Source: Sedimentisphaerales bacterium
GTDB lineage: Bacteria > Planctomycetota > Phycisphaerae > Sedimentisphaerales > Anaerohalosphaeraceae
Length of the DNA stretch: 33,462 nt
Reading direction: 5' to 3'
Assembly: GCA_016926155.1 (NCBI GenBank)
Contig: JAFGPC010000141.1
Coordinates: 1 to 33,462 of the forward strand
How positions within the stretch are numbered: position 1 is the stretch's first letter; every line of letters begins with the position of its first letter. The notes under the pieces were generated by a model. The model saw nothing but the letters and a program-made list of their open reading frames with translations. It did not search any database and was not told the origin of the DNA. Below are positions 5,416 to 25,748 of this stretch, in pieces. A program made the position numbers and the translations under genes.

Positions 5416-7794
5416 ATGACGTTGGGTACGGCGGGAAGAAAAACACAAGGTATGGCATGGATTGTCATCTCTATACTGCTGTTTGGTGTGGGATGGTGCA
5501 GCGCCCAGGAACCATCGCAAGTGAATCTGGAATCACTGCGGATCGGCAGTATTGAGGTCAGCGGAAATGTAAGCCTTGGCCGTGCAGATATACTCTCGAG
5601 CGTACGTGCTCGGACGGGGGAGTTGTTTGACACCGCTTCAGTCGAGGAGGATATCAAACGTCTGGCTAGGTTGGAAGGTGTAGAATACGCCTATTATAAC
5701 ACGGCAGTGGCGGACGGACAGATCAAGCTGACCTACGTTGTCGTGGAGCGGAACCTAGTGCGCGAAATCGTTTTCATCGGCAATAAACATTTTAAAGATG
5801 TTTCTCTGACCAAGGAACTGGGATTCAAGGTTGGGGATTATCTCGATGCGTTCCAGGCCGGTGCGGCGGTGGAGGCGATTGCGGAGAAATATCAAAGTAA
5901 GGGCTACGCCTTCGTCGAGGTCATATTAGACGAGGCCAAGATGAATCGGGGTCGGGTCGAATACGCCATTCAGGAGGGGCCGCGCGTCAAGGTCAAGGAC
6001 GTCCGGTTTCGCGGCAACCAGTCTCTGGAATCGGAGGAACTGAAAAAAGTAATCAAAACGCGAACCCGCAAATTTCTTTTCTGGTCAGTGGACTACACCA
6101 AAGAAAAACTGGAAGCCGATGTGCTCAAGTTGCAGGAGGCCTATCTGAAAGCCGCCTTTCTGAATGCTGCGATTACGACCGAGACCGAATTTCTCGAGGA
6201 CAGGACGGGGACCATCGTCACATTTGTAATCGACGAAGGCCGGGAATACATCGTGCGACAGATCACGTTCCAGGGCAATACATACTTTGACGAAGACACG
6301 CTCCGGCAGAATTTAAAACTCGTCGAAGACAATAAATATACTCCGCAGCGTGCCGAACGCGATATCAAGGAAATACGAGACTTATATCTGGCCGAGGGCT
6401 TTGTGGATGCGGCGGTAACGCATAGACGCAGCTTTGTGGGCGATTCTCAAGTGGATGTGGATTTCGAAATTGTCGAAGGCCGGCGTTTTAAAATCGGCCG
6501 TATCGACATCGCCGGCAATGAAACGATTAAAGACAACGTCTTTCGCCATGTACTCGACGAAGAGGGTTTTACGCCGGGACAGTGGTATAATGCCGAGATC
6601 GCCCGCGGAGACGGAAAGGGAGACCTGGAAACGATTGTGCGTCGCACGACCATTACTCAGTCGGCCAAAATCACGCCGGCCCCGCCCGAGCCGGATAGCG
6701 ATTTGCGTAGTGCTACCCTCAGTGTAATCGAAGGCCAGACCGGATCGATCATGTTCGGTGCCGGAGTTGCCAGTGACAGCGGCGTGATGGGACAGATCGT
6801 TTACGATCAGAGAAACTTCGACATTTCCGACTGGCCGGAAAACCTGGCCGAATTGATTCATGGCAAGGCCTTCAAGGGAGCCGGACAGCAGTTTCGTATC
6901 AGCCTCAATCCCGGAACCGTAGTCAGCACCTGGCAGGTCAGCTTTACTGAACCGTACCTGTACGATCTTCCCGTTTCATTTGAGGTTGGCGGTTACGGCT
7001 TTGAACGCTGGCGCGAGTCGTACGACGAAGATCGAACCAAGGCATATGTCACTTTGGAAAAGCGATACCAGGACGATTGGCGTCGCGGTATCAGTTTTCG
7101 TGCCGAGAATGTGAAAGTGACGGATCTGGAATGGGATACACCAAGGCAAGTACGGGACGATGAAGGAAGCAATACTTTATTCGGGGCTCGTTTCTTCTTT
7201 CGAAAGGATACCACCGACAATCGCTACACTCCTAGTTCGGGGTACAATTTCACCGCCGGATATGAACAGGTGGTGGGCGACTATACGTTCGGGATTGTCA
7301 GTGCAACACAACGATGGTATCGTACGGTCTATGAGGACCTGGCCGAGCGAAAAACAGTGCTGGAGACCAAACTGTACGGGGCCGGCATCGTTGGCGGGGA
7401 TGCCCCCGTCTATGAAAAGTTCTATGCCGGCGGCACCGGTTCGATCCGCGGCTTCGATTATCGCGGCGTCAGCCCCCGCGGCCTGCAGTACAATCCTTAC
7501 ACGCCCATCACCAATCCTGAGCGGAAAGACCCGATCGGAAGCGATTGGATCCTAACCGGCAATGTGGAACTTGCGGTACCGCTGGAAAGCGATGTCTTGT
7601 CATGGCTCTTTTTTGTCGATGCCGGCGCCGTCGACACTGGTGGAGTACGTGCTTCGGTCGGTACGGGAATTCAGATCTTGCTACCGCAGTGGTTCGGTCC
7701 GGTTCCCATGCGTTTCGAAATTGCCGCTCCATTCATGAAGGAAAGTGAGGATGAAACGCGCACTTTCAGCTTTTCGGTCGGAGCTTTATTCTGA
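5416..7794 (+). CDS. bamA: Outer membrane protein assembly factor BamA (Omp85)
   Basis: BamA inserts beta-barrel proteins into the outer membrane. The 792-residue product begins with a signal peptide (hydrophobic residues about 13-28, cleavage likely after CSA near 30). POTRA repeats follow over about residues 40-430, recognisable from recurring blocks such as VRFRGNQSLESEELKK and ITFQGNTYFDEDTLRQ. The C-terminal half is the barrel. The loop-6 motif SIRGFDYRG places the conserved RGF at 678-680, and the protein ends in Phe as barrel proteins do. AGGAG at 5406-5410 precedes the ATG. It heads the outer-membrane part of the gene train with ompH/skp, lpxD, lpxC-fabZ and lpxA. Confidence 0.95.
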   Translation: MTLGTAGRKTQGMAWIVISILLFGVGWCSAQEPSQVNLESLRIGSIEVSGNVSLGRADILSSVRARTGELFDTASVEEDIKRLARLEGVEYAYYNTAVADGQIKLTYVVVERNLVREIVFIGNKHFKDVSLTKELGFKVGDYLDAFQAGAAVEAIAEKYQSKGYAFVEVILDEAKMNRGRVEYAIQEGPRVKVKDVRFRGNQSLESEELKKVIKTRTRKFLFWSVDYTKEKLEADVLKLQEAYLKAAFLNAAITTETEFLEDRTGTIVTFVIDEGREYIVRQITFQGNTYFDEDTLRQNLKLVEDNKYTPQRAERDIKEIRDLYLAEGFVDAAVTHRRSFVGDSQVDVDFEIVEGRRFKIGRIDIAGNETIKDNVFRHVLDEEGFTPGQWYNAEIARGDGKGDLETIVRRTTITQSAKITPAPPEPDSDLRSATLSVIEGQTGSIMFGAGVASDSGVMGQIVYDQRNFDISDWPENLAELIHGKAFKGAGQQFRISLNPGTVVSTWQVSFTEPYLYDLPVSFEVGGYGFERWRESYDEDRTKAYVTLEKRYQDDWRRGISFRAENVKVTDLEWDTPRQVRDDEGSNTLFGARFFFRKDTTDNRYTPSSGYNFTAGYEQVVGDYTFGIVSATQRWYRTVYEDLAERKTVLETKLYGAGIVGGDAPVYEKFYAGGTGSIRGFDYRGVSPRGLQYNPYTPITNPERKDPIGSDWILTGNVELAVPLESDVLSWLFFVDAGAVDTGGVRASVGTGIQILLPQWFGPVPMRFEIAAPFMKESEDETRTFSFSVGALF

Positions 7795-7831: not shown

Positions 7832-8425
7832 ATGAAATCATCGAATTTCGTGATGGCTTTATTATTCGTGGCGGCGTTGGTATTTGCTCTGGGGTATAAT
7901 CACGGCAACGCCAATGCCCGGATTACCGTGGTTCCAGCCAAAGTGGGCGTAGTGAACGTCAACAGCATTTTGCAGAACAGCAAGAAACACAAGACCTGGC
8001 AGGAAAAAATGGGAGTCGAAGAAAGCCAGATCCAGGCAGAAATGGATAAACTCAAGAGCGAGCTGGAATTTATCAATAAAGATATGGCTACATTGAAAAA
8101 AGGTTCACCCGAACATATCAAACTCCTCCGGGAAGTTGCCGAGAAGGACGGCATTTATCAGGCCAAACAGCAGTACTATGAACAGGAAATGACCATGAAA
8201 GTCAAGGCCTGGACCGAAAGCCTCTATCAGGATATCCAAACCAAGATTGCCGAAGTCGCCAAAGCCAATGGTCTGGACGTTGTGCTCGGGGCCGAGGATG
8301 TGGAGTTGCCCGGCGCCAATATGCGTGAGCTTCTGCTGGACATCAAGACCAACAAAGTGCTCTACCATGCCGAGGGGCTGGACATCACCACCGAAGTTCT
8401 GGCGGCTCTGGACGCCGGGTCCTAG
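7832..8425 (+). CDS. Periplasmic OmpH/Skp-family chaperone
   Basis: Skp-type chaperones hold unfolded outer-membrane proteins in the periplasm for BamA. The 197-residue product has an N-terminal signal segment (about residues 7-29, ending GNANA) and the OmpH opening [11 protein letters not shown] long charged coiled coil covers about residues 55-125 (EEKMG-like heptads, [19 protein letters not shown]). The C-terminal strand region includes [16 protein letters not shown]. The size is close to the family norm of about 160-200. The gene order bamA-skp-lpxD matches the order in many proteobacteria, supporting the call despite weak sequence conservation in this family. Confidence 0.87.
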
Positions 8426-8442: not shown

Positions 8443-9495
8443 ATGGACCAGTCGGTAGTGATGTTGACACTCGATCAGATCGCCGAAACAATTGGCGGCA
8501 GGGTGATTGGAGACGGCTCGATCAAGATCCGTTCGGTTAATTCCCTTGCCGAAGCCCAACCCGGACAGATCACATTTATCACATCCGAACGGCATGCCGG
8601 CCTACTTTCCGGCTCGAAGGCCTCGGCGGTGATGGTTGCTGTGCCGCTTGAGGATGTCCACATTGCCCAACTCCTGGTGGCCGATTTGCAGTCTGCCCTG
8701 ATCGCAGTTCTTGATTTGTTTGCTCCCCATCTTAAAAAGCCTTCTGTTGGGCTTCATCCGACGGCGGTTGTGGACGAATCAGCCACGATCCATCCGAGTG
8801 CTTGTATCGGCCCGCATTGCACGATAGGGCCCAATGTAGCTATTGGCGAGGAAACGGTTCTGGAATCCGGATGCAGGGTAGGGGAGAATTCGTCTATTGG
8901 CCGGGGGAGCTACCTCCATGCCAACGTGGTTATATACCCGAATTGTCACATCGGAAATACCTGTATTCTCCATTCCAACTCGACCATCGGAGCCACCGGT
9001 TTCGGGTACTATCCGGTCGAAGGAAGACCAAAGTTGATTCCCCATAACGGCGGGGTTATAATAGAAGACGGCGTGGAAATCGGCGCTAATAGTTGTGTCG
9101 ACAGAGCCAAATTTGGCAATACGGTAATCGGGGCCGGCACCAAGATCGACAACCTGGTGCAGATTGCCCATAATGTAATCATCGGGCGTTGTTGTCTGAT
9201 CGCCGGGCAAACCGGGGTAGCCGGGAGTACTTGCTTGGGCGACGGGGTGATTATGGCCGGCGATTCTGGAGCCAGCGACCATATTACCATCGGTGATGGA
9301 GCTATAGTTGGCGCTTGTTCCAAGTTGTTTGATGATATCGGGCCCGGGGAAAAGGTGTTTGGCGTTCCGGCCATGGATGTGGGTAAGGCCCGTCGGATCA
9401 ATGTTCTGACAAGGCGTCTCCCAGATTTGGCGACTCGACTCAAGACACTGGAAAAACAGGTCGATCAACTGTTAGCCGAAAAAGACAACCGGTAG
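8443..9495 (+). CDS. lpxD: UDP-3-O-acylglucosamine N-acyltransferase LpxD
   Basis: LpxD adds the second acyl chain in lipid A synthesis, at the inner face of the cytoplasmic membrane. The 350-residue product has the N-terminal uridine-binding domain (about 1-100). A left-handed beta helix of hexapeptide repeats follows ([20 protein letters not shown] and onward), including the GATGFGYYP segment. The family His lies in QIAHNVIIG at residue 243, matching E. coli His239. The C-terminus is a short helix. GGGAGA lies about 10 bases before the ATG at 8443; an ATG at 8461 is a possible alternative. The gap to the OmpH/Skp gene is 17 bases. Confidence 0.95.
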
Positions 9496-9541: not shown

Positions 9542-10852
9542 TTGATACAACAAAAAACAATTGGAAGTGATGTCAAACTTTCCGGAAAGGGCCTTTTCAG
9601 CGGCCAGGACGTCAAGGTGACGTTCAAGTCTGCCGAGCCTGATACGGGAATTGTTTTTGTACGTACCGACCTGTCCGAATCGGTTCGCATCAGCGCCGTC
9701 GCCGACAATATCGTAGAGCGGGACCGGAGGACAGCTCTGCAAAACGGTTCGGTCGGGATTGAGACGCCCGAGCATTGTCTTGCCGCGGTCAATGCCCTGG
9801 GGATCGACAATCTGATCGTCGAGATCGATGGTGTTGAGCTGCCTGGCTTTGACGGCAGTTGTGACGAATATTTCAAAGTGCTTGAGAAAGCCGGTATCGT
9901 TGAGCAGCAGAAAGAACGAAAAAAACTGGTAGTCCACGATGCGATCAGCCTCAGCGACGGAGACAAATCGATTTATGCTCTGCCCTATGGGGACAATGGT
10001 CTGCATATCACCTATGAGCTGGATTATACCGAGCATACCGGCATCGGCAGCCAGGTCTATACGTGTCATTTGACGCGGGACCATTTTGCCCGTCATTTAT
10101 CCACAGCACGGACCTTTGTCCTGGAGGCTGAAGCCCGGCAGATGCAGGCGGCCGGTATCGGAACGCACTTGACGCCCAAGGACATCCTCGTGATCAATTC
10201 CGATGGCCCGATCAAGAACAGTTATCGATTCCCGGATGAATGCGTCCGTCATAAAGTTATTGATCTGATCGGCGATCTGATGCTGGTGGGTCGGCCTGTG
10301 TCCGGCCGGATTGTGGCCTGCAAAAGCGGCCATCTGCTCAATCAGAAACTGGCGCGCAAACTGGTGCAGATGGCCCAGCGCGTGGATTTCAATGGCGACA
10401 TGGGTGGAAAAACCATCCTGGATATTCGTCGCATACAGAAAATCCTTCCACATCGCTATCCGTTCCTGTTGGTGGATAAGGTGGTGGAGATCGAAGGCGA
10501 CAAGAGAATCAAAGGTATTAAAAATGTCACGTTCAATGAACAGTTTTTCCAGGGTCATTTTCCCAGTACCCCAATTATGCCCGGTGTGCTGATCGTTGAG
10601 GCTCTGGCGCAGGTTTCCGGTCTGCTCTTTGCCCAGAAACTGGAACATACCGGCAAGCTGGCTGTGCTGCTGACGATGGACGGCGTCAAAATTCGAAAGT
10701 CTGTAGTGCCGGGCGATCAGCTTATTCTGATTGCCGAAGCGGCACGGTTGCGGAGCCGGGCGGCTTTATGTAATTGTATGGCTATGGTCGGCGATGAAGT
10801 CGTTGCCGAAGCCCGGCTCAAGTTCATGCTCGTGGACGATGAAATGGTGTAA
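9542..10852 (+). CDS. lpxC-fabZ: Fused LpxC deacetylase and FabZ dehydratase
   Basis: This single 436-residue ORF joins UDP-3-O-acyl-GlcNAc deacetylase (the committed step of lipid A synthesis) to (3R)-hydroxyacyl-ACP dehydratase (fatty acid elongation). The LpxC part (about 1-285) keeps zinc ligands His78 (TPEHCLAA), His237 and Asp241 (HKVIDLIGD) and the catalytic His264 (SGHLLN). The FabZ part (about 292-436) keeps ILPHRYPFLLVD, the catalytic His339 in GHFPSTPIMPG and Glu353. The same fusion is known in Bacteroidetes and some other diderm phyla. The start is TTG 9542, with only a distant AAGGAA upstream, so the exact start is uncertain. Both activities compete for hydroxyacyl-ACP, so a fixed 1:1 ratio may balance lipid A against phospholipid supply. 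Confidence 0.95.
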   Translation: MIQQKTIGSDVKLSGKGLFSGQDVKVTFKSAEPDTGIVFVRTDLSESVRISAVADNIVERDRRTALQNGSVGIETPEHCLAAVNALGIDNLIVEIDGVELPGFDGSCDEYFKVLEKAGIVEQQKERKKLVVHDAISLSDGDKSIYALPYGDNGLHITYELDYTEHTGIGSQVYTCHLTRDHFARHLSTARTFVLEAEARQMQAAGIGTHLTPKDILVINSDGPIKNSYRFPDECVRHKVIDLIGDLMLVGRPVSGRIVACKSGHLLNQKLARKLVQMAQRVDFNGDMGGKTILDIRRIQKILPHRYPFLLVDKVVEIEGDKRIKGIKNVTFNEQFFQGHFPSTPIMPGVLIVEALAQVSGLLFAQKLEHTGKLAVLLTMDGVKIRKSVVPGDQLILIAEAARLRSRAALCNCMAMVGDEVVAEARLKFMLVDDEMV

Positions 10853-10918
10853 ACGGGAAGGATTAGCAGGAACGTGTTAACAGAGCAGCAAAAAAATACG
10901 GGAGGTCGAGAAAATTTC

Positions 10919-11734
10919 ATGAATGTCAGGATTCATCCAAGTGCGGTGATTGACAAGACAGCCAACATTGCAGATGATGTGATCATCGGCCCTAATAGTG
11001 TCATTGACGCCGGCGTGCAAATTGGCGATGGTTGTATTCTGGACGCGAATGTGGTTATCGGCCCGAATGTGCAGTTGGGCAACAACAATTTATTATATGC
11101 CAATTGTGCAATCGGCCGGCCGCCGCAGTTGTTGGGACTTCGGCCGGATTCGCCCATGGGTAAGTTGCGCATCGGCAACAACAATGTAATCCGTGAGCAG
11201 GTCACGATTCATCCGAGCATCTATCCCGACCAGGCGACGATTGTCGGAAACGACAATCTGATTATGGTTGGCGTCCATCTGGGACATGATTGTGTACTGG
11301 AAGATAAGATCGTCATCAGTAACTATACGCAGATCAGCGGCCACTGCAAGATCGAAACGGGCGTCTGGCTCAGTGGTATGGTCGCCGTGCATCAATTTGT
11401 CACCTTCGGCAAGTGGTGCTATGCCGCCGGTTTTTCCGGGGTAAACCACGATGTGCCCCCGTTTGTGATCGTCAGCGGGCATTACCCGCCGGAAGTGCGG
11501 TCCATCAACAAACGCGGGCTTAAACGTGCCGGGCTGACCGAGGACCAGCAAAAGAAGATCATGGATGCTTTCCGACGGATCTATCGCGATGAGGATGGAG
11601 TGCTGTTGGAGCGTGTCAAGACTGTGGCCGCCCAGGATGGTCTGGATGAAAATGTGCAGGCCATGGTGCAGGCGATCCTGCGCAGCAGCCAGCACCGTTT
11701 CGGGCGGCATCTGGAAAAATTCCGCGAACACTAA
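10919..11734 (+). CDS. lpxA: Acyl-ACP--UDP-GlcNAc O-acyltransferase LpxA
   Basis: LpxA transfers the first hydroxyacyl chain in lipid A synthesis. The 271-residue product is close to E. coli LpxA (262). It shows hexapeptide repeats from IHPSAVIDKTANIADDVIIG onward. The catalytic motif reads VGVHLGHDC, with the active-site His at 123 (His125 in E. coli). The helical C-terminus begins near NKRGLKRAG. A GTG at 10874 is in frame, but the ATG at 10919 is preferred because the domain begins directly there and GGGAGG lies at 10900-10905. The neighbour downstream is a sugar oxidoreductase, which bears on what sugar this LpxA accepts. Confidence 0.94.
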   Translation: MNVRIHPSAVIDKTANIADDVIIGPNSVIDAGVQIGDGCILDANVVIGPNVQLGNNNLLYANCAIGRPPQLLGLRPDSPMGKLRIGNNNVIREQVTIHPSIYPDQATIVGNDNLIMVGVHLGHDCVLEDKIVISNYTQISGHCKIETGVWLSGMVAVHQFVTFGKWCYAAGFSGVNHDVPPFVIVSGHYPPEVRSINKRGLKRAGLTEDQQKKIMDAFRRIYRDEDGVLLERVKTVAAQDGLDENVQAMVQAILRSSQHRFGRHLEKFREH

Positions 11735-11789
11735 TCGCGTTTTGGGAGTTCGATATTGACATTCCCAATCCGTATCATGGACGAGTCGA

Positions 11790-12794
11790 ATGAGTAAAAT
11801 ACGTACCGCCGTCATCGGCGCCGGCAAGATGGGCGCCATCCATGCCAAGGTTTACAGCAAGATCGAAGAGTGTGAGTTGATCGCGATTGTCGATCCGGAC
11901 CGCAAACGAGCGGAGAAGCTGGCAACCCAGTATAACTGCCGGGCTTTGACCGAATGCGATTCCCTGCCTGATCAGGTCGATGCGGTGACGATTGCAACGC
12001 CGACGATCCTGCATCGCGACCTGGCGGTGAAATTTATCGAAGCCGGGGTTGCGGTGATGATCGAAAAACCACTGGCCGCGAGTGTGGAGCAGGGTCGGGA
12101 GATCGTCGATCTGGCCCGGCAGCGTGGCGTCGTGGTCGGTGTCGGTCATTCCGAGCGGTGTAATCCCGTCGTTCAGGCCATGAAACGCCTGCATATCGAG
12201 CCCCGGTTTATCGAGGCCAATCGGATCAGCCCGTATCCGTTTCGTTCCATCGATGTGGGCGTGGTGCTGGATGTAATGATCCACGACATCGATATCATTC
12301 TCTCGCTGGCGGCCTCATCCGTGCGAAAGGTCGATGCCGTCGGCGTCAGCGTCATCGGGCAGCATGAGGACATCTGCAGCGCGCGAATCACCTTCGAAAA
12401 CGGCTGCGTCGCCAATGTGACCGCCTCGCGCCTGGCCCTAAAGACCGAGCGTAAGGTCCGCGTCTTCAGCCGGCAGGCCTACCTGAGCCTGGACTTCTTC
12501 AAGAAGGAAGGCATCGTGATCAAGGCCGATCCCAACGTCAACGTTGTCGAATGGGTCCGGCAGCATCAGCAGGAAGAGGATTTCGATTTTTCCGAGGTCA
12601 ACTGGCCCGACCTGCTGCATATCGAACAGCTCGAAATCACCGACGCCGAACCGCTCCGTGTCGAACAGCAGTCCTTCCTCAGGGCGGTCGTCGATCCGTC
12701 CGCCCGGCCGGAGGTCACCGGCGAAGAGGGTCTGGCGGCCCTGGAGTGCGCGGAAATGATCCTGGCCTCGATCAAAGAACACAAGTGGGAGTAA
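11790..12794 (+). CDS. Gfo/Idh/MocA-family oxidoreductase, candidate UDP-GlcNAc 3-dehydrogenase (GnnA-like)
   Basis: The 334-residue protein is an NAD(P)-dependent sugar oxidoreductase. It has a Rossmann motif GAGKMG at residues 10-15, the family EKP motif at 92-94 and the catalytic-site segment DVMIHDID at 161-168. It follows lpxA by 55 bases on the same strand. In Acidithiobacillus and Leptospira, a family member (GnnA) next to lpxA oxidises UDP-GlcNAc at C3 so that an aminotransferase (GnnB) can make the diamino sugar of amide-linked lipid A. The position and HSER..P motif fit that role. No GnnB-like aminotransferase is in the window, so the exact substrate is an inference. Confidence 0.85.
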   Translation: MSKIRTAVIGAGKMGAIHAKVYSKIEECELIAIVDPDRKRAEKLATQYNCRALTECDSLPDQVDAVTIATPTILHRDLAVKFIEAGVAVMIEKPLAASVEQGREIVDLARQRGVVVGVGHSERCNPVVQAMKRLHIEPRFIEANRISPYPFRSIDVGVVLDVMIHDIDIILSLAASSVRKVDAVGVSVIGQHEDICSARITFENGCVANVTASRLALKTERKVRVFSRQAYLSLDFFKKEGIVIKADPNVNVVEWVRQHQQEEDFDFSEVNWPDLLHIEQLEITDAEPLRVEQQSFLRAVVDPSARPEVTGEEGLAALECAEMILASIKEHKWE

Positions 12795-22582: not shown

Positions 22583-23104
22583 ATGGCAAAGAAGAAAAAA
22601 GCAGCGAAGAAAAAAGCCACGAAAAAGGCCGCCGGCAAGAAAGCCAAAAAGGCAGTCAAGACAAAAGCCGCGTCCAAGAAAACCGCTAAAAAGAAGGTAA
22701 CCAAAAAAGCGGTGGCAAAAAAAACCGGCAAGGCAAAGAAGAATGCGAAAAAGGCTGAGGCTAAAAAGGCTCCCAAAGTAAAGGCCAAGCCGAAAAAAGC
22801 CGCCAGGAAAAAAGCGGTCAAGAAATCAGCGCCGAAAAAACCTGCCAAAAAGAAAAAAGTTGCTCCTAAGGCCGCCAAAAGAAAAGCCGCGCCGAAGAAA
22901 AAAGCAACGCCTAAGAAAAAGGCCGTCAAAAATGTGGTGAAGAAGAAAAAAGTGGCAAAGAAGAAAACCGCGGCTAAAAAAGCTGTGAAATCCAGAAAGG
23001 TTTCTAAGCCAAAACCGGCACCGAAAAATAAAACAGTCAAAAAAGTCAGCAAAAAGGTGGCCGCTCCAGCCAAAAAAGCCGCCCGTAAACGTGCCGCTAA
23101 ACAC
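22583..23104 (+). repeat. Low-complexity Lys/Ala-coding stretch (H1-like tail)
   Basis: These 174 codons encode an almost uninterrupted mix of KK, KKA, KAA and AKK steps with occasional Pro, Val and Thr. The plus strand is strongly purine-rich, which creates a long spurious Phe/Leu-rich open frame on the minus strand (22510-23283). The repeat units are irregular, so length changes by slippage are plausible between strains. Confidence 0.85.
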
Positions 23105-24268
23105 ATCTCTCCTGTGGGAGAAACCAAAACATCCGTAAAAGTGTCGCGCGATGTATTGCCAGTTCTGGAAATGGAGAGTTTTGAACCGAAGCCGATGATT
23201 GAAGCCGGCGTGGAAGACAGCTTTGTCGGCTCGACGCGATACGCCTGGCTTGGCTCCGGACAATGTGGTGGCCGGCTGGTCAAGGCTTTCTATGACCTGG
23301 GATATAAGAAAGTGATCGCTGCTAACACTACGCACCATGATCTGGATCTGCTGGATATTCCCAAAAACCAGAAGTTTTTGATGGATATCGGGGAACTGGG
23401 TGCAGGCAAGGATATGAGCCGTGGTGCCGAAGCCGTCAGCCAGACACGTCAGGAACTCCTGCACGAAGCCCGACAGAAATTCGGGACTGAAGTCGAACAT
23501 ATTATGGTCTGTTTTGGTGCTGGTGGCGGAACCGGGGGTGGTAGCGCCAGGGAAATCGTAGGCGTGGCTAAGGATTATGCCCGCTCTATTGGCAAAGCCG
23601 ATCCGGCTCGTAGCGTCGGTGTGCTGATGACCCTGCCTACGGTCGGTGAATCCAGCAGTCCTCAGGTTGCCCAGAATGCCTATCAGGTGGCAACCGAGAT
23701 GGGACAACTGGCAATGGAAGGGCAGATCTCACCGTTGATCATTATCGATAACGAGAAAATCAGCAGAATGTATCCCGGCCTGACGGTCAAGGACTTCTGG
23801 CCCAGCATCAATAGCACTGTGGCGACGCTGTTCGATATCTTCAATCGGCTCAGCTCGCTCAGCAGTCCGTATACTTCACTGGATCCGGTCGATTACCAGA
23901 GTATTATTCGGGCCGGCGGCTGTGCGATCATGGGCTTGACCAAGGTTAACGAATACCAGGATCGTTTTGCTCTGTCCAGTGCGGTCCGAAAGAACCTGGC
24001 CAAGACATTGCTGTGTGATGGATACGACTTGGCGACGGCCAAGGTCGCCGGTTGTGCTGTTGTTGGCGGCAAGAGCATGATGGCCACCACGCCGGCATTA
24101 CAGGATAACATCAACTATGCATTTGATGTCCTGGCCGATATCACGGGCAATGCGACGATCCATCGTGGGATTTACGAGGATCAGCGCAACAGCCTTCGGG
24201 TGTACACGGTCATCGGCGGGCTGGATTTCCCCGCTGAAAGGATCGAGCAGCTAATAACGCCCGCGTAA
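22583..24268 (+). CDS. FtsZ/tubulin-superfamily GTPase with histone-H1-like lysine-rich N-terminal tail
   Basis: The 561-residue protein has two parts. Residues 1-174 are a low-complexity Lys/Ala tail (79 Lys, 5 Arg, one Glu, no Asp), like eukaryotic H1 and chlamydial Hc-type DNA-binding tails. Residues about 220-555 are a full FtsZ/tubulin domain. T1 reads GSGQCGGRL (224-232), T2 AANTTHHDL, T3 GAGKDMSRG, and T4, the tubulin signature, GAGGGTGGGS (312-321). T6 is IIIDNEKI and the T7 loop LDPVDY keeps both acidic residues. The C-terminal half matches the FtsZ_C region (GIYEDQRNSLRVYTVIGG). No FtsZ C-terminal docking peptide is present. AGGAGG lies 8 bases before the ATG. GTP binding and polymerisation are expected from the family; the cellular role is unknown. 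DNA binding by the tail is inference. Confidence 0.87.
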   Translation: MAKKKKAAKKKATKKAAGKKAKKAVKTKAASKKTAKKKVTKKAVAKKTGKAKKNAKKAEAKKAPKVKAKPKKAARKKAVKKSAPKKPAKKKKVAPKAAKRKAAPKKKATPKKKAVKNVVKKKKVAKKKTAAKKAVKSRKVSKPKPAPKNKTVKKVSKKVAAPAKKAARKRAAKHISPVGETKTSVKVSRDVLPVLEMESFEPKPMIEAGVEDSFVGSTRYAWLGSGQCGGRLVKAFYDLGYKKVIAANTTHHDLDLLDIPKNQKFLMDIGELGAGKDMSRGAEAVSQTRQELLHEARQKFGTEVEHIMVCFGAGGGTGGGSAREIVGVAKDYARSIGKADPARSVGVLMTLPTVGESSSPQVAQNAYQVATEMGQLAMEGQISPLIIIDNEKISRMYPGLTVKDFWPSINSTVATLFDIFNRLSSLSSPYTSLDPVDYQSIIRAGGCAIMGLTKVNEYQDRFALSSAVRKNLAKTLLCDGYDLATAKVAGCAVVGGKSMMATTPALQDNINYAFDVLADITGNATIHRGIYEDQRNSLRVYTVIGGLDFPAERIEQLITPA

Positions 24269-24566: not shown

Positions 24567-25748
24567 ATGGGTAGAACAGCAACGAAAAGTCAAAAACGGG
24601 CCAACCGAAAGTCCTCAACGGTGGACCTGCCGGAAAGCATCTCTCCATCGTTGGAACTGGAGCGGGCATCCGCAGCATGTAAGGTCAGTCGCGGTGTGGA
24701 AAATCGCTGTGCCGGATCGATTAACTTTGCCTGGCTCGGTTCAGGTCAGTGTGGTGGTCGGCTTGTTAAGACCTTTTATGATCTGGGATATCACAAGGCC
24801 ATGGCCCTGAATACCACCCAACGGGATCTGGACCATTTAAGTGTGCCGAAAAAACACAAGTTCCTGATGGATATCGGCTCCGAAGGTGCCGGCAAGGATA
24901 TGAACCGTGGCCGGGAAGCGGCGAGTCTTTACAACCAGCAGATTCTCCACGAGATAGAGCAGATTTTCGGAGGGGATGTGGATCATATCATGGTCTGTTT
25001 CGGCGCCGGCGGGGGCACCGGAAGCGGCAGTGCAACCGGCCTGATCGAGATTGCTCAGCAGTATGCCCGCTATATCGGCCTGCGCAATCCCTGCCGCAGC
25101 GTAGGGGCGTTGATGACCCTTCCGACCAATGGCGAAGCCGGCAGCCCCCGCGTGGCTGAAAATGCTTATACGATCGCCAGTGAACTGGCCGTGCTGGCCT
25201 GGCAAAACAAGATCAGCCCGCTGCTGATCGTCGATAACGACAAGATCAGCAAACTGCACCCGAACCTGACAGTCAAGCAATTCTGGCCGACGATCAATCG
25301 GACCGTGGGCGAATTGTTCGATATTTTCAATCGACTCACTTACCTGCCCAGCGAATATACCGCGTTCGATCCTACGGACTATTACAGTATCATTTCCGCC
25401 GGGGGCTGTACGATCATGGGCGTAACCTGCGTGCGCGACTTCAAGAACAAGTTTGCCATCTCAAGAGCAATCAAGGAGAACCTGCAGGATACGCTATTGA
25501 CCAGTGACTTTGACCTGAGCCGGGCCAAAGTCGCTGGCAGCATTATCGTCGGCGGAAAAAAGATGATGGGGACGATTCCCGGCCTGCAGGATGCCATCAA
25601 CTACGGCTTCGATGTGCTGGCCGACATTACCGGCCAGGCGACCGTCCATCGCGGCATCTACGAAGACAAACGTGAAGCCCTTCGCGTCTATACGATCATC
25701 GGGGGGCTTCCCGCTCCCTCCGCCCGCTTGGAACAACTCCGCTCATAA
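24567..25748 (+). CDS. FtsZ/tubulin-superfamily GTPase, tailless paralogue
   Basis: The 393-residue protein is a close paralogue of the preceding gene's globular domain. It keeps T1 GSGQCGGRL (58-66), T2 LNTTQRDL, T3 GAGKDMNRG, T4 GAGGGTGSGS (146-155), T6 IVDNDKI, T7 FDPTDY (267-272) and the FtsZ_C-like GIYEDKREALRVYTIIGG. The N-terminal 50 residues are only mildly basic (MGRTATKSQKRANRKS), like a short remnant of the long tail. ATG 24567 is the only in-frame start after a stop at 24540; its ribosome binding site is weak (GGGAG is about 19 bases away). Tandem tubulin-like pairs can co-polymerise, as BtubA/BtubB do, but that is only a hypothesis here. Confidence 0.87.
   Translation: MGRTATKSQKRANRKSSTVDLPESISPSLELERASAACKVSRGVENRCAGSINFAWLGSGQCGGRLVKTFYDLGYHKAMALNTTQRDLDHLSVPKKHKFLMDIGSEGAGKDMNRGREAASLYNQQILHEIEQIFGGDVDHIMVCFGAGGGTGSGSATGLIEIAQQYARYIGLRNPCRSVGALMTLPTNGEAGSPRVAENAYTIASELAVLAWQNKISPLLIVDNDKISKLHPNLTVKQFWPTINRTVGELFDIFNRLTYLPSEYTAFDPTDYYSIISAGGCTIMGVTCVRDFKNKFAISRAIKENLQDTLLTSDFDLSRAKVAGSIIVGGKKMMGTIPGLQDAINYGFDVLADITGQATVHRGIYEDKREALRVYTIIGGLPAPSARLEQLRS

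Follow-up and report, generated by a model that had tools for sequence, protein, structure and literature searches.

The window, by which we mean the whole stretch of 33,462 nucleotides that was analysed (contig JAFGPC010000141.1 of a Sedimentisphaerales bacterium, phylum Planctomycetota), carries on its plus strand a cluster of genes in the order bamA, skp, lpxD, lpxC-fabZ, lpxA and a gene of the Gfo/Idh/MocA oxidoreductase superfamily. The individual features are as follows.

5416-7794, plus strand: bamA, with Omp85 and POTRA domains
7832-8425, plus strand: skp, matching OmpH
8443-9495, plus strand: lpxD, UDP-3-O-acylglucosamine N-acyltransferase (NF002060, 359.5 bits; TIGR01853, 324.9 bits against a cut-off of 242.5)
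9542-10852, plus strand: lpxC-fabZ fusion (PF03331, 274.7 bits; PF07977, 101.9 bits; NF009667, 417.5 bits, under its cut-off of 465)
10900-10905, plus strand: likely ribosome-binding site of lpxA, GGGAGG, read directly
10919-11734, plus strand: lpxA, with its ATG at 10919 (NF003657, 249.1 against 226 bits; TIGR01852, 239.8 against 231.05 bits)
11790-12794, plus strand: gnnA-like Gfo/Idh/MocA gene, encoding a predicted UDP-GlcNAc 3-dehydrogenase of 334 amino acids (PF01408, 106.5 bits against a gathering score of 24; match to 7bvj)
3' of the Gfo gene, minus strand: endonuclease V gene

The Gfo gene begins 55 bases after the lpxA stop codon on the same strand, which confirms its place directly behind lpxA as given in the sequence-only reading. 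Promoter-like sites (six, against 3.6 with an sd of 2.0 in shuffled sequences) and terminator-like sites (five, against 5.3 with an sd of 2.1) were close in number to the shuffle values, and these counts are therefore uninformative. The genome to which the window belongs (5.0 Mb in 222 contigs, 95.9% complete) also contains lpxB and lpxK, and one lpxA was found in it. The LptD family PF04453 had no match in this genome although lpxA, lpxB, lpxC, lpxD and lpxK are all present, which may only mean that its LptD is divergent.

The proposal that the Gfo protein resembles GnnA was supported by sequence, by fold and, across the phylum, by its proximity to lipid A genes. Its best sequence match in the PDB was 7bvj, titled UDP-N-acetylglucosamine 3-dehydrogenase GnnA from Acidithiobacillus ferrooxidans, with 174.9 bits (E 2.6e-50) against 71.7 bits for the runner-up, and the two proteins share 37.3% identity over 236 residues. 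The predicted model of the window protein (pLDDT 94.2, pTM 0.91) superimposed on 7bvj with a fold Z of 41.4 and an rmsd of 1.2 Å over 300 residues. In the fold ranking, 7bvj and 7bvk (Z 41.4 and 40.9 at 1.2-1.4 Å) preceded the next family (Z 35.9, 2.1 Å), and the Foldseek E value was 7.3e-35 for GnnA versus 2.3e-25 for the next family. WlbA/WbpB, the UDP-GlcNAcA 3-dehydrogenase (3q2k), belongs to the same superfamily and lies farther from the window protein than GnnA does (Z 34.0). The E-K-P and M-I-H-D motifs of the A. ferrooxidans enzyme are kept, and the residues E92, K93 and P94 and H165 and D166 were invariant across 35 aligned rows; the lysine of the former and the HD pair of the latter we take to be the catalytic motifs of the superfamily. 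The best NCBIfam family was the equivalog NF040723, under whose cut-off the protein fell (213.3 against 450 bits); this model is archaeal, so the score does not exclude a bacterial GnnA. We conclude that the gene behind lpxA very probably encodes a GnnA-type dehydrogenase, its activity being predicted from sequence and fold.

We also considered that the protein might be some other sugar dehydrogenase of the superfamily, of unrelated function, that stands beside lpxA by accident. The superfamily is broad, with 39 matches in this genome alone, and the score under the NF040723 cut-off would agree with such an origin, but the match is specific to GnnA in both sequence and fold, and the gene order is conserved in the phylum and beyond. 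The gene is moreover single-copy in the genome (728 bits to itself, 52 bits for the second-best match) and its order behind lpxA recurs in 37 of 60 stretches from relatives, so the adjacency stands above chance. We therefore give the accidental placement little credence.

The distribution of the pairing was assessed in a sample of 197 genomes of the phylum, each at least 80% complete, in which orthologues of the Gfo gene (threshold E<=1e-25) were found in 153. Sixty stretches were chosen from these 153 genomes, with near relatives and long contigs favoured. By open frames, lpxA was the next gene upstream within 500 bases in 37 of them and lay within 3.5 kb in another three, other lpx or bamA genes were nearby in nine, and 11 held no lipid A gene, which places gfo near lpx or bamA genes in 49 of the 60. 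No DegT-family aminotransferase matching the six full-length ones of the window genome was present in any of the 60 stretches, of which one (L055) comes from a contig that ends at gfo. Outside the phylum 576 loci were confirmed, and the best 80 of these, all named, were examined. Gfo was directly preceded by lpxA in 13 of them; lpxA lay within 3.5 kb in a further 10 and elsewhere in the stretch in seven, other lpx or bamA genes were present in three, and 47 had none. Among the same best 80, a GnnB-like DegT followed within 900 bases after Gfo in 20, and lpxK lay downstream of Gfo within the stretch in 13. The Geobacteraceae loci (L108, L116, L126) have the order lpxD-fabZ-lpxA-gnnA-gnnB, and the succession of lpxD, fabZ, lpxA and gnnA is common to them and the window; however, the window has an lpxC-fabZ fusion, and gnnB follows neither in the window nor in the 60 phylum stretches. 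A GnnA gene behind lpxA that has no neighbouring gnnB is thus common and is no peculiarity of the window.

The expected partner, GnnB, belongs to the DegT family (PF01041), and none of the nine matches to this family in the genome lies on the window contig (C199), in agreement with the earlier statement that gnnB is missing from the window. Six of the nine are full-length DegT proteins, two weak ones (36 and 27 bits) represent another type of aminotransferase, and the ninth scores 24.5 bits. Against a profile built from 20 GnnBs linked to gnnA, the highest-scoring of the six, named here by their contigs, were C67 (441 bits), C180 (404 bits) and C112 (286 bits). The score alone was rejected as a test for gnnB, since a solved enzyme of another name, 7b0d, reaches 498 bits on the same profile. 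A careful 58-row tree placed the 20 GnnBs in one clade (100/95), which included neither the 30 rows from relatives nor any of the six full-length DegTs (C67, C180, C112 and three more) of this 95.9% complete genome. The sequence-only reading had pointed to the full genome as the place to look for gnnB and had named the lack of a homologue there as a refutation; in the strict sense of a GnnB-clade member the search returned nothing, and in the loose sense it returned the DegT relatives just named.

The closest of these, C67, is a WlbC/WbpE-like protein with 45% identity to a Geobacter GnnB. Its neighbours are WlbA-like, WlbB-like and UbiA-like genes amid sugar-nucleotide genes, and a similar Wlb-type cluster surrounds its orthologues in four genomes of the same family or order (G132, G146, G192 and G117, the last with an extra solitary DegT); the orthologue in G053 had no WlbA or WlbB within the 11.5 kb read. 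C180 is QdtB-like, with 444 bits to 3frk. The C112 gene stands in a run of genes in one direction (L389:6002-16357) composed of lpxK, a heptose kinase/adenylyltransferase-like gene, a HAD phosphatase, a heptosyltransferase, a Kdo/WaaP-type kinase, a glycosyltransferase, plsY, the DegT itself and an FMN-reductase-like gene. As partner of the window GnnA, the C67 enzyme is the leading candidate, though a tentative one. Something else altogether, or a gene in the missing 4% of the genome, is a possibility to which we give somewhat less weight; the C112 enzyme of the lpxK-core operon would be an unlikely partner and C180 a very improbable one.

The gene content around C67 bears on a different reading, namely that the GnnA-type protein feeds a surface-polysaccharide sugar, for example UDP-GlcNAc3NAc made through the WlbB/WlbC-like pair at C67, while lipid A stays ester-linked and the place beside lpxA is ancestral. 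The presence of that pair in a sugar-nucleotide cluster and the lack of a GnnB-clade enzyme among the DegTs in the trees are consistent with it, as are the 11 of 60 stretches in which gfo lies away from lipid A genes and the finding, described below, that gfo-linked LpxAs do not differ in type from those of genomes that lack gfo. However, the C67 cluster has its own WlbA-like dehydrogenase, separate from the window gene, and gfo has been kept in 153 of the 197 genomes, in most cases close to lipid A genes (49 of 60 stretches). On balance we regard the polysaccharide reading as rather unlikely.

If the amide route operates, its second step might instead be carried by C112, a 4-aminotransferase-like DegT that would have been recruited for the 3-keto sugar in an operon of lpxK, hldE, gmhB, heptosyltransferase, Kdo kinase, glycosyltransferase and plsY. 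The content and common direction of this operon, with LpxK in it, argue for such a role. Against it, besides the low score of the protein on the GnnB profile, PseC is the NCBIfam model that it matches best (332.5 bits, short of the cut-off of 423.5), and its best solved chains are the scyllo-inositol transaminase 7b0d (249.7 bits), 7b0m (227.8 bits) and a perosamine synthetase (227.4 bits). Three stretches with its relatives in family f4, read over 17 kb, showed neither lpxK nor heptose genes. This version of the route appears improbable.

The association of DegT genes with gfo was examined across the phylum sample. A DegT match at E<=1e-80 to the GnnB profile occurred in 150 of 153 gfo-bearing genomes (101, 24 of 24 and 25 of 28) versus 27 of 44 gfo-less genomes, the matches in the relatives belonging to several kinds of DegT. 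A tie between DegT and gfo is weakly supported by these counts, because 12 of the 17 gfo-less genomes with no match come from two families, and nine of the 11 gfo-less families have a match in some genome. The p-values of the association (8e-4 at a threshold of 1e-115, 3.5e-10 at 1e-80) ignore kinship, and since related genomes are not independent we do not rely on them. In other phyla, all 17 Gfo-carrying genomes searched had a DegT at E<=1e-95, in one case the GnnB neighbour itself, a count that covers Gfo carriers only.

A second, quick tree of 160 DegT rows, from which duplicates, L004-L006, L272 and rows shorter than 300 residues were excluded, gave the same picture by SH-aLRT support. 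DNA for relatives' DegT loci was requested in sets of 30, 24, 30 and 28, and about 70 gfo-bearing genomes have no row in the tree. The GnnB clade was closed (95) and contained none of the 113 rows from relatives. A set of 97 rows (96) comprised 65 of the 79 from gfo-bearing relatives, all five C67-group rows, eight of the 22 from other phyla and 19 of the 30 belonging to gfo-less genomes. In family f45 a GnnB/WbpE-like DegT stands directly before lptD in all eight sampled genomes, lptD being recognized with a profile built up from a single LptD of that family and named by Pfam in one genome (L328:5858-9864; L182, L184, L186, L187, L191, L194, L199 and L209). Because lptD is a lipopolysaccharide export gene, this adjacency suggests a role of the f45 aminotransferase in lipid A. 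The idea that the aminotransferase generally lies beside lptD was rejected: the arrangement was seen in f45 only, and in each of three other families the full-length neighbour is not an LptD by Pfam, by which a divergent LptD elsewhere could be missed. In family f4 (G002, G032, G087, G159), gfo is away from lipid A genes and the best DegT match is C112-like.

The acceptor site of LpxA was compared with that of Leptospira, as the sequence-only reading had suggested. Leptospira LpxA reportedly takes UDP-GlcNAc3N. The catalytic His125 equivalent is kept in the window protein, and its loop reads QLLGL versus QDLKY (residues 73-77) in E. coli, so that Asp74 is replaced by Leu and Lys76 by Gly. The pocket of Leptospira has Asp69-Leu70-Gly71 at the place of Leu-Leu-Gly in the window, the Gly being shared and the Asp replaced by Leu (pocket residues of the E. 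coli and Leptospira enzymes as given in the accessible part of PMC7072397). Gly at the Lys76 place occurs in 14 of 135 aligned LpxAs of mixed kinds, and a hydrophobic residue at the Asp74 place in seven of the 135, namely the window protein, those of four relatives from its family and order, the first of the G053 copies and one more sequence. As judged from the aligned residues, the predicted pocket did change in this lineage in its own way, like neither that of E. coli nor that of Leptospira. LpxA was discarded as a diagnostic of the amide route, since among 14 positions compared in the 135 proteins none separates LpxAs linked to gnnAB from the others.

In a quick LpxA tree, likewise with SH-aLRT support only, from which L079b and L072 (broken or short) were excluded and for which L256 gave no LpxA, 46 gfo-linked LpxAs and 20 from gfo-less genomes shared one set of 73 rows (96), and the notion of a special gfo-linked clade was dropped. 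Fifteen of 34 copies away from gfo grouped with Leptospira LpxA (16 rows, 96), one of the 15 belonging to G061, a genome that lacks gfo. Two true LpxAs were confirmed, among the matches listed, in at least 15 genomes, 14 with gfo and one lacking it (for example G013, G118, G149 and G151), by both matches reaching 283 bits or more in 10 genomes and by reading both copies in five; this count does not test for a link with gnnA. An earlier count, in which two or more TIGR01852 matches at E<=1e-30 were present in 59 of 153 gfo-bearing versus two of 44 gfo-less genomes and a second lpxA seemed to track gfo, was withdrawn: on TIGR01852 the LpxDs from ten relatives reach between 60 and 107 bits, the threshold lies near 104 bits by an estimate from the listed scores, and some of the second matches may thus be LpxD. 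G053, a relative from the same taxonomic order as the window genome, has a tandem lpxA-lpxA-gfo (L046:5796-8582), with a window-like pocket change in the first copy.

Taken together, the gene behind lpxA would be an orphan gnnA. Its product, whose identity is strongly supported, is predicted to oxidize UDP-GlcNAc to UDP-3-keto-GlcNAc with NAD; this would then be converted to UDP-GlcNAc3N, most likely by an unlinked DegT-family aminotransferase outside the classical GnnB clade, and LpxA would attach the first acyl chain to the amino group at position 3. Because a single lpxA was found in the genome, both sugars would carry an amide at position 3 if the route works; in relatives with two lpxA genes a mixed backbone would be expected. 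The conserved order of gfo behind lpxA in the phylum, the GnnA match in sequence and fold and, weakly, the DegT in 150 of 153 genomes argue for the amide route, against which stand the lack of a GnnB-clade enzyme among the DegTs in the trees, the lack of a matching DegT in the 60 stretches, the WlbA-WlbB-WlbC type cluster with its own dehydrogenase around C67, the ordinary phylum type of the linked LpxA, the 11 stretches with no lipid A gene and family f4, which contradicts a simple story. We consider that the window GnnA probably serves lipid A synthesis, and that, of the readings compared, the whole route to amide-linked lipid A accounts best for this organism, a view held with a little less than even confidence.

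Comparable gene sets are found in published systems, here cited from the accessible parts of the papers. In Capnocytophaga canimorsus gnnA and gnnB are unlinked and stand outside the lpx operon, and the species has two lpxA genes and a mixed GlcN3N-GlcN backbone (PMC3342949); the relatives with two lpxA genes (at least 15 genomes) would fit its gene set, whereas a single lpxA was found for the window organism. In Mesorhizobium loti gnnA and gnnB lie apart from each other and from lpxA (PMC5644692), and Granulibacter has one putative gnnA and two possible gnnB genes (PMC8036547). Nearly all lipid A genes are essential in the planctomycete Planctopirus limnophila (PMC10632474). Among the papers found, none paired GnnA with planctomycete lipid A; the sole one with both words, PMC12783922, is apparently a virus survey. 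Unlinked gnnA and gnnB are already known, and the frequent pairing of a predicted GnnA with lpxA in this phylum is confirmed here. One member of the Bdellovibrio group (L105) has lpxA-gnnA and no DegT in the stretch, and Bdellovibrio lipid A is said to contain GlcN3N. It is described as unusual and neutral (PMC12228718).

A wider reading is that most of the phylum has a split GlcN3N lipid A pathway, in which gnnA is fixed behind lpxA, amination falls to a separate clade neighbouring GnnB, WlbC-like enzymes included, the aminotransferase is joined to lptD in one family, and mixed backbones are made where a lineage has a second lpxA of the Leptospira-like type. We think this extension unlikely as it stands. 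If it were true, alkali-stable lipid A would be present in a large part of a phylum, whose lipopolysaccharide would give misleading results in mild-alkali tests, and the second step of a known two-gene route would be replaceable.

Elsewhere in the window, two adjacent genes (22583-24268 and 24567-25748) encode related proteins that match PF00091, the Tubulin/FtsZ GTPase domain, with 39.3 and 46.2 bits against a cut-off of 33; the first of these proteins bears a long lysine/alanine-rich, histone-H1-like N-terminal tail.
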